The position numbers and the translations under genes were made by a program. The notes under the pieces were generated by a model. The model was not told the DNA's origin and did not search any database. It saw only the letters and a program-made list of their open reading frames with translations. A stretch of 42,057 nucleotides of DNA. Origin: Omnitrophica bacterium GWA2_41_15. GTDB taxonomy: Bacteria; Omnitrophota; Gorgyraeia; Gygaellales; Profunditerraquicolaceae. The DNA is taken from positions 1 through 42,057 of the forward strand of contig CAKKQZ010000005.1 of assembly GCA_919902445.1 (NCBI GenBank). The letters are read 5' to 3'. Position 1 is the first letter of the stretch; each line of letters begins with the position of its first letter. This document shows, piece after piece, positions 8,770 to 10,882 of this stretch.

Positions 8770-9510
8770 TTAATTCGGCAATAACGCCTTGGCTAAAGCC
8801 ATAAAGATTATGCCGAGCAAAAAAGCGATAAATGCTAAGGAAGAACGCCTAAGGTTAGTTTCTTTGTGTATTTCCGGGATAAGGTCGCTTGCTCCGATAT
8901 AAATAAATCCTCCGGCTGTTAACGGGAGTATAAAATTCGAGAAACCTTTTGCAAAATCAGAGAGAAAATAACCTGCCAGAGCCCCTATAACTGCAGTAAA
9001 GGCAGTAAGAAAATTACAGAATAAAGCCTTCTTTTTTGTAAAACCGCCATAGACAAGCACTCCGAAATCTCCGAGCTCTTGCGGTATCTCATGAAGTATT
9101 ATTGCTATTGTTGTCACTATCCCCAAATTTACGGAATCAACAAAACTTGCGGCGATAACAACGCCGTCAATAAAATTATGAATCCCGTCTCCGAAAAGGT
9201 TTAAATAGGTAAAGGTGTGGACATCGCATACCCCGCTATGGCAATGACGCCAGTGAAAATACCTTTCCATAAGAAAAAACAGCACTATCCCAAGGATTAC
9301 ATAATAAAACATAACCTCACTCTGCATCTTCTCCAGCGCCTCAGGCAATAGATGCAAAAACGCCCCCCCGATCAATGCCCCGGCGGAAAACCCGATAAGA
9401 CAAAATACTAACTTGTGCAATAAATTCTTCTTTACGCAAAGCGTGATAATACCGACAAAAGATATGAGGCTGACTATAAATGTGCTGCTTAAGATCCAGG
9501 CTAAAATCAT
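8770..9510 (-). CDS. ZIP-family metal transporter
   Basis: This 246-residue membrane protein has about eight helices. The metal-site motifs of ZIP helices 4 and 5 are intact: HNFIDG (H111, D115) and HEIPQE (H140, E141, E145). A His-rich loop (HWRHCHSGVCDVH) precedes helix 4, consistent with Zn2+ or Fe2+ binding. It should import divalent metal into the cytoplasm. The gene lies 26 bases before the radical SAM start, so it may share a transcript. A double copy of the dispersed repeat lies upstream; no clear Shine-Dalgarno is seen. Confidence 0.93.
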   Translation of the reverse strand: MILAWILSSTFIVSLISFVGIITLCVKKNLLHKLVFCLIGFSAGALIGGAFLHLLPEALEKMQSEVMFYYVILGIVLFFLMERYFHWRHCHSGVCDVHTFTYLNLFGDGIHNFIDGVVIAASFVDSVNLGIVTTIAIILHEIPQELGDFGVLVYGGFTKKKALFCNFLTAFTAVIGALAGYFLSDFAKGFSNFILPLTAGGFIYIGASDLIPEIHKETNLRRSSLAFIAFLLGIIFMALAKALLPN

Positions 9511-9740: not shown

Positions 9741-9995
9741 TTAAGGAGTAACTTTGTAGACCTTGTCTTGAGGGTGCACCTTTCCAGTAACCTTTATGCC
9801 GACTGACTCACCGGGCCTGGCTTCGGTTACCTGGGCGTGTTCGATTTGCATGGAATCTATCGCTTGCTTAAAATCTTCGGAATGTCCTTTGATATGAATG
9901 TTATCCCCTATTTTTAGCGCATCTGAGAGCTCAATTACAGCCACATTTAAATGGCCGTAATAATGGGTGATTTTACCGACCTCAATTTCTTGCAT
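9741..9995 (-). CDS. EF-Tu domain 2-like small protein (translation elongation factor-like)
   Basis: The 84 residues form a single beta-barrel like domain 2 of EF-Tu/IF2: VGKITHYYGHLNVAVIEL, IGDNIHIKGH, SMQIEH and GIKVTGKVHPQDKVYKV. Stand-alone proteins of this type are known in bacteria and archaea as elongation factor-like, with no GTPase domain and no defined function. The start has GGGAGGG just upstream. A perfect 7-bp stem (10008-10026) lies next to that Shine-Dalgarno, and a 26-residue basic protein gene precedes it. Confidence 0.85.
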   Translation of the reverse strand: MQEIEVGKITHYYGHLNVAVIELSDALKIGDNIHIKGHSEDFKQAIDSMQIEHAQVTEARPGESVGIKVTGKVHPQDKVYKVTP

Positions 9996-10053: not shown

Positions 10054-10134
10054 TTATCCTAAGCAGGGTTTTCTTCCCTTGTTTGCCCGCTTTGAACGCC
10101 AGTTAAGCTTTCCTCTTCTTTTTCTTTTTCCCAT
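10054..10134 (-). CDS. 26-residue highly basic protein
   Basis: An ATG one base after the TAA of the CsgG-like gene opens a frame of 26 residues, MGKRKRRGKLNWRS followed by KRANKGRKPCLG, with 12 Lys/Arg residues. The strong bias and the ordered MGK...RGK...GRKP pattern look like a real nucleic-acid or ribosome-binding peptide. The N-terminus recalls ribosomal peptide bTHX, but the match is loose. There is no Shine-Dalgarno, so coupling to the upstream stop codon would be needed. It precedes the EF-Tu-domain-like gene, which hints at a link to translation. The family is not identified. Confidence 0.5.
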   Translation of the reverse strand: MGKRKRRGKLNWRSKRANKGRKPCLG

Positions 10135-10135
10135 A

Positions 10136-10882
10136 TTAATATTTGTAGAAGTTTGCAGGCATGGCCTGCGAGATATAACGCACTGCCTCAATAATACACA
10201 CCCGTATGGCTTTTTCCATGGGTGTATTAGCGTAAGCGGATAACCCTCCTCCTAATGCCCAGCCGCCCAAGAACCCTGCGCCTATAATACCGGAAATATC
10301 CGCTGCCTGGCCTTGCACGCGCGTTGCTGCAAGAATCTCCGAGGTTGACGCGTCAACTATACGTATATCCAAAGCCATATGCGCTTTATTTAATGAAGCG
10401 CCTAACAACCCGCCTAATACGCCGCTTCCGACTCCGCCTCCGCCGCCTATCCCAGCCCTTCCGCCTGAGGCTTGCGGCTCAAACTCGGTAACTGCCGCGG
10501 TAATTATTAAATCTGCTGTCTTAATCTTTCCTCGTTGCGCTCCTCCAAGCCCCTGTTGGCTAGCGCCTGAAGCACCCAATTCCTGTTCCTGCATTACTGC
10601 GCCCAAAGCCTGGCGTTCTACTACTGAAAAACGGTTACTGTTTATGAGGGCGGTTACGAGCATTTCTCTAAGCCCTGTTCCAATCTCCCCACCTGCCTTT
10701 GCTGCCTTAACATCAAAGTCCGCAACGGCAATTCTCGCCTTAGGCCCTGAATAAGGAGGCAGGGTTTGCGCTCCGGCAGTATTCTCAACCTGGGCGCTAG
10801 GCTGCATTAATGCACCTAAAGATACGCATCCTGCTAAACTAATCACTAATAATGAAACTATAACAAAAAATGCCTTCTTCAT
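10136..10882 (-). CDS. CsgG/HfaB-like lipoprotein
   Basis: This 248-residue protein has a lipoprotein signal peptide ending at LAGC (C19). The middle resembles CsgG: RIAVADFDVK, the TGLREMLVTALINSNRFSVVER segment, and ADLIITAAVTEFEP. CsgG forms an outer-membrane secretion pore; shorter relatives are periplasmic-facing lipoproteins with unclear function. A glycine-rich stretch (residues about 145-165) replaces part of the pore-lining region, and a GG-rich end segment is present. The start overlaps the upstream gene by 4 bases (ATGA). Curli-type substrates are not in the window. Confidence 0.82.
   Translation of the reverse strand: MKKAFFVIVSLLVISLAGCVSLGALMQPSAQVENTAGAQTLPPYSGPKARIAVADFDVKAAKAGGEIGTGLREMLVTALINSNRFSVVERQALGAVMQEQELGASGASQQGLGGAQRGKIKTADLIITAAVTEFEPQASGGRAGIGGGGGVGSGVLGGLLGASLNKAHMALDIRIVDASTSEILAATRVQGQAADISGIIGAGFLGGWALGGGLSAYANTPMEKAIRVCIIEAVRYISQAMPANFYKY

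Follow-up and report, generated by a model that had tools for sequence, protein, structure and literature searches.

The window, a stretch of 42,057 nucleotides from Omnitrophica bacterium GWA2_41_15, carries on its minus strand a 26-codon gene that very probably encodes the Omnitrophota form of the large-subunit ribosomal protein bL37. This form, hereafter W-type for the GKLxWRS segment ahead of its conserved core, is predicted to sit in the pocket formed by 23S rRNA helices H39, H40, H72 and H89 and by 5S rRNA, where it would stabilize either the 50S subunit during assembly or the peptidyl transferase centre (PTC) on its A-site side. The prediction draws on profile comparisons and on analogy with solved bL37 structures. 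No report of bL37 in Omnitrophota was found in the literature searched, and the peptide is most likely a previously unannotated member of the known bL37 family.

The gene (10054–10134, minus strand) begins with ATG at 10134–10132, ends with TAA at 10056–10054, and specifies the product MGKRKRRGKLNWRSKRANKGRKPCLG, in which 12 of 26 residues (46%) are Lys or Arg. It is present as a single copy in its genome. A 45-residue version initiated at a TTG at 10191 is possible on paper, but was rejected because conservation starts at the ATG. Including the stop codon the gene spans 81 nt, whereas the usual minimum for gene callers is 90 nt, which agrees with the view in an earlier note on this DNA that the frame had been overlooked for being too short. 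That note's other descriptions, of 26 residues that are nearly half Lys or Arg and of a start one base after a stop codon, are likewise accurate, and the strand is the one item missing from them. Two segments of the peptide can be distinguished by alignment. Residues 12–23, WRSKRANKGRKP (10066–10101), appear to be the counterpart of (R/K)xSKANHGKRP in bL37 and include Trp12 and Gly20, which are invariant in Omnitrophota. The basic N-terminal segment MGKRKRRGK (residues 1–9; 10108–10134) would be positioned as a helix on H89 by analogy with bL37 (PMC5876184).

Immediately upstream is a CsgG-like lipoprotein gene (10136–10882, minus strand; PF03783, E 6e-38), whose TAA is separated from the ATG by one base. 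This TAA-T-ATG junction (10132–10138) suggests translational coupling. A Shine-Dalgarno-like motif is present in 70 of 89 homologues and is absent from the window copy. Since this copy lacks the motif and its start abuts the upstream stop, the peptide is likely translated by reinitiation after csgG. On the downstream side lie a gene for an 84-residue protein resembling EF-Tu domain 2 (9741–9995, minus strand; PF03144, E 2.4e-5, below the curated cut-off) and, beyond it on the same strand, a ZIP transporter gene (8770–9510), so that the earlier placement of the frame between envelope and translation-like genes was a fair one. The csgG-like gene is directly upstream in 46 loci and the ZIP transporter gene downstream in 35, while the lone EF-Tu domain-2-like protein adjoins the peptide gene in 12 homologous loci. 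Because these co-directional neighbours are non-ribosomal, the neighbourhood is uninformative on function, and it is the peptide itself that supports the ribosomal reading.

The 26-codon frame is a genuine coding gene under purifying selection. An intact copy was found in 37 of 40 relatives, mostly at 88–100% identity. In a broader sample of 384 genomes from the phylum, a family profile recovered copies in 66 of 71 genomes from the same family, in 14 of 16 from the same order and in many from the same class, mostly with E values of 1e-9 to 1e-16. Other classes in this sample gave weak matches only (E above 0.01), and a recognizable copy was absent from many families of the same class as well as from other classes of the phylum. 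The peptide is therefore not essential to all Omnitrophota ribosomes. Among 51 close sequences, the pooled pS was 0.72 and the pooled pN 0.078, for a pN/pS ratio of 0.11; 48% of comparisons differed at the third codon position and 6.6% at the second. Thus, synonymous change is saturated and amino-acid change is small. The other five frames of the same DNA gave ratios of 1.6–2.9, except for the antisense frame with the wobble position in common, where the ratio was 0.29. Frames of similar size are common, with many nearby in the window, and a chance frame without a product might have been suspected on that basis. Given the pN/pS ratio, the saturated synonymous sites, and the retention of start, stop and frame in scores of genomes, the probability of such an accident is negligible. 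The earlier note had proposed that a lack of protein-level conservation, or frameshifts in close strains, would speak against a real microprotein; the contrary was seen, and its proposal of a real, overlooked basic microprotein stands.

A consensus of 31 diverse Omnitrophota members reads MxKRKRRGKLxWRSKKANHGxKPxxG, with M1, R6, W12, G20 and G26 invariant. Two members of the same class (L064 and L065, family f37) are divergent: they read MSRRKRRGKLSWRRRRKKNKGRKPCLG/CRG, have gained one residue by insertion, and show KKNKG where others have KANHG. Each of the 31 members was compared by itself with 18,950 NCBIfam models at a threshold of E 10; only two families were matched, and both are 50S protein bL37. 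The mycobacterial bL37 model matched 19 members, with a best E value of 5.2e-6, and the planctomycete model matched 14, whereas eight shuffled members used as a control matched no NCBIfam model. The curated bL37 cut-off of 30 bits was not reached by Omnitrophota members tested singly, which scored 11.7–13.4 bits. Because the NCBIfam models represent the mycobacterial and planctomycete subfamilies, scores below the cut-off would exclude membership in those subfamilies, and not in bL37 as a whole. A bL37 protein is expected to be very short (24–32 residues), basic and encoded by its own short gene, and the window peptide fits this with 26 residues, 46% Lys or Arg, and its own conserved start and stop.

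The reverse comparison used solved bL37 chains from the PDB, namely those of M. smegmatis (MAKRGRKKRDRKHSKANHGKRPNA), M. tuberculosis (MAKRGRKKRDRKYSKANHGKRPNS) and C. acnes (MGKTGRKRRARRKKGANHGKRPNA), retrieved with a query sequence that we took to be bL37 and that the search confirmed. A profile of 21 Omnitrophota sequences scored these chains at 24.3, 24.1 and 21.6 bits, respectively, and none of 5000 composition-matched shuffles reached the score of any of them, so that the likeness to bL37 extends beyond amino-acid composition. When bias correction was applied, bL37 came second in the PDB ranking of the Omnitrophota-only profile, at E 7.2, behind a ciliate mitoribosomal protein. A pooled profile placed the bL37 chains at E 4e-9 to 2e-6, although bL37 and bridging forms are themselves part of that profile. 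Some depositions, among them 7kgb and entries related to it, label the bL37 chains of mycobacteria '30S ribosomal protein THX', an apparent misnomer. Taken as sequence evidence, these comparisons establish kinship of the Omnitrophota family with bL37, within the limit that 26 basic residues set on such proof.

The window copy itself has the core KRANKGRKP (ANKG for ANHG), while most class-level Omnitrophota members, and L010 and L027 from the same family, carry KKANHGxKP. Direct scans with the window peptide alone returned no NCBIfam, Pfam or PDB match, as expected for 26 residues of skewed composition at the detection limit, and the two NCBI bL37 models miss this copy in its own genome. Its score against bL37 was reached by 182 of 5000 shuffles and is not significant. 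By the same measure, the peptide of L010, a single substitution (K19H) away from the window peptide, was equalled by 5 of 5000 shuffles, and that of L070, from the same class, by none of 5000. The window copy is thus tied to the bL37-like family through its near identity with relatives such as L010.

Further forms came from searching 257 Gb of genome sequence with a codon pattern that encodes KKANHGx[K/R]P, which returned at least 119 loci. These are not independent evidence for the KKANHG core, which the pattern demands, but the taxa returned and the anatomy of the mini-genes are independent. Among the matches listed, which come from Actinomycetota, Planctomycetota, Chloroflexi and Omnitrophota, nearly all are short basic frames resembling bL37 mini-genes, and one (L205) has the look of a chance match. 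Peptides among these listed matches include those of Streptomyces (MAKRGNKKRARKKKKANHGKRPNA), Acidimicrobiia (MSKRTVKRKLRAKKKANHGKKPNCGRG), Planctomycetia (MAKPHRKLKKANHGARPASSKARKAKRKHIRT), Scalindua (MAQSNKRGKLKWRSKKANHGRKPNRGKQRGKL) and Chloroflexi (..GKLGWRSKKANHGRKPTMGRGTRN). GKLxWRS, the segment seen in Omnitrophota, also occurs in the Scalindua and Chloroflexi peptides, whose scores do not reach the NCBI cut-offs. Intermediates in Scalindua/Brocadiaceae, Chloroflexi and Acidimicrobiia link the W-type to the known bL37 types. Two records titled Acidobacteria (L133 and L136) carry Acidimicrobiia-like bL37 peptides and are possibly mislabelled bins.

The best PDB match of the Omnitrophota profile is the Tetrahymena mitoribosomal protein mL102 (6z1p, chain AQ; E 0.34, or E 0.015 with the pooled profile), which carries KKANHGARPC within residues 68–79. 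This protein lies between the central protuberance and the L7/L12 stalk and extends to the A-site tRNA (PMC7326499). mL102 is a possible mitochondrial relative of bL37.

The earlier note had suggested either a bTHX-like ribosomal peptide or a new RNA-binding microprotein. The peptide does resemble bTHX, a small-subunit peptide in the head of the 30S subunit, in its length, charge and MGK...RRGK(L/I) start. However, at a threshold as permissive as E 10, none of the 31 members matched a THX model of either Pfam or NCBIfam, whereas the positive control, a sequence that we took to be T. thermophilus THX, was recognized by the NCBIfam THX models with E values of 1e-18 and 8e-15, which confirmed its identity. 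Against the family profile, THX did not stand out from its own shuffles, 88 of 5000 of which reached its score, and it has no counterpart of the conserved ANHG-x-KP core. We therefore consider the bTHX-like part of the suggestion very improbable. The identity of the peptide with bS22 (AURKAIP1-COX24) was also rejected, since 2111 of 5000 shuffles reached the score against the family profile of the sequence that we take to be bS22.

It is unlikely, though less so than a bTHX identity, that the gene encodes a conserved RNA-binding microprotein with another function, such as an assembly factor or a protein of another ribosomal site, and that its ANHG-x-KP likeness to bL37 arose by convergence. 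Tiny basic ribosomal peptides do arise independently, as illustrated by the unrelated peptides (CLaSP and a uL30 extension) that fill the bL37 cleft elsewhere, and co-transcription with non-ribosomal genes would suit such a function. Convergence is difficult to reconcile with the graded intermediates that lead to the bL37 of Actinomycetota and Planctomycetota in size, core and N-terminus, or with the shuffle controls, in which the scores of three bL37 chains against the family profile were reached in 0 of 5000 trials. The earlier expectation of a ribosomal or RNA-binding microprotein thus holds to the extent that the peptide is very probably ribosomal, through its kinship with bL37 and not with bTHX.

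As a bL37 protein, the Omnitrophota peptide would be expected by homology to do the same job as its solved relatives. The Arg/Lys-rich N-terminus would fold into a short helix lying along the H89 phosphate backbone, and the AN(H/K)G-x-K-P loop would occupy the cavity bounded by H39, H40, H72 and the 5S rRNA tip. In this position, the peptide might link 5S rRNA to the peptidyl transferase region and stabilize either the assembly of the 50S subunit or the PTC on its A-site side. We infer that the peptide is expressed, that it binds the ribosome at this position and that it acts on the PTC.

The Omnitrophota peptide also bears on the origin of bL37, which has been proposed to have split off from a long uL30 (PMC10618245). 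Protein uL30 (PF00327) was above the cut-off in 0 of 40 Omnitrophota genomes compared with 13 of 14 controls. Of 12 genomes, 10 showed both the uS5 and the uL15 gene, that of the window included (C13, near 45280), and in these uS5 is followed directly by uL15 with no uL30 between them. Omnitrophota therefore appear to lack uL30, and the presence of bL37 here without any uL30 sits poorly with the proposed split. A trade-off between bL37 and a uL30 extension was rejected, because uL30 is missing in all sampled Omnitrophota, with or without a recognizable bL37. It is possible, though doubtful, that bL37 is an old ribosomal protein of Omnitrophota, Planctomycetota, Chloroflexi and Actinomycetota that was kept in ciliate mitoribosomes within mL102 and that arose independently of uL30.

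Ribosomal RNA was compared between bL37 carriers and non-carriers. No difference was seen in 5S rRNA length, nearly all being 117 nt. Within H89 of 23S rRNA, CTCGAGAG...CGACAG was found in seven of 10 readable carriers (examined loci L271, L278, L279, L283, L284, L292 and L295), and CCAAGAG...CGACG in four of five non-carriers. This difference in the helix touched by bL37 is suggestive of a tie to bL37 carriage, although shared descent may explain it.

If the assignment is correct, an unannotated ribosomal protein, expected beside the PTC, is added to the large uncultured phylum Omnitrophota, and a component published as actinobacterial would be spread over several phyla. The peptide would also offer a concrete sequence test of the origin of bL37. 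It would also mean that gene finding continues to overlook ribosomal protein genes as small as some 80 nt. The basic view of the ribosome is unchanged.

Among known systems, bTHX resembles the peptide in length, charge and MGK start, but it has no significant sequence relation and belongs to a different subunit. A short helix and a loop make up the bL37 of M. smegmatis, which occupies a pocket lined by H39, H40, the H41/H42 joint, H72 and H89 and has been described as restricted to actinobacteria (PMC5876184); in C. acnes bL37 also contacts the 5S rRNA tip and is proposed to stabilize and coordinate the surroundings of the PTC (PMC10085706). The 5S–23S cleft is filled in Borrelia by an N-terminal extension of uL30 (PMC10618245) and in Coxiella by CLaSP (PMC13392368), whose unrelated sequences make them positional analogues only.

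Actinobacterial bL37 (NCBIfam NF047428; PDB 5o60, 7kgb and 8crx) and the W-type are both basic peptides of about 24–26 residues encoded by a lone short gene. Each has a basic N-terminus that leads into the core, K-A-N-H-G-(K/R)-(K/R)-P or, in most class-level Omnitrophota members, KKANHGxKP, and each ends in a tiny tail. Unlike the actinobacterial form, the W-type has GKLxWRS before the core, making it one to two residues longer, often has Cys or Asn and a terminal Gly after the Pro, carries ANKG in the window's own family, and falls below the 30-bit model cut-off. NCBI models extend bL37 beyond the published actinobacterial accounts to Planctomycetes, whose form (NF047429) shares the KKANHGxRP core with that of Omnitrophota. 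In the planctomycete form the N-terminus is shorter, KKANHG being preceded by eight residues, and the C-terminal tail is long and basic, whereas the reverse is true in Omnitrophota. The W-type peptides of Scalindua/Brocadiaceae and Chloroflexi (L126, L199, L203 and L184) are near-identical to the Omnitrophota form across GKLxWRSKKANHGRKP but carry C-terminal extensions of 5–10 residues. Of these, L126 and L184 were scanned and, like the Omnitrophota members, fell below the NCBI cut-offs.
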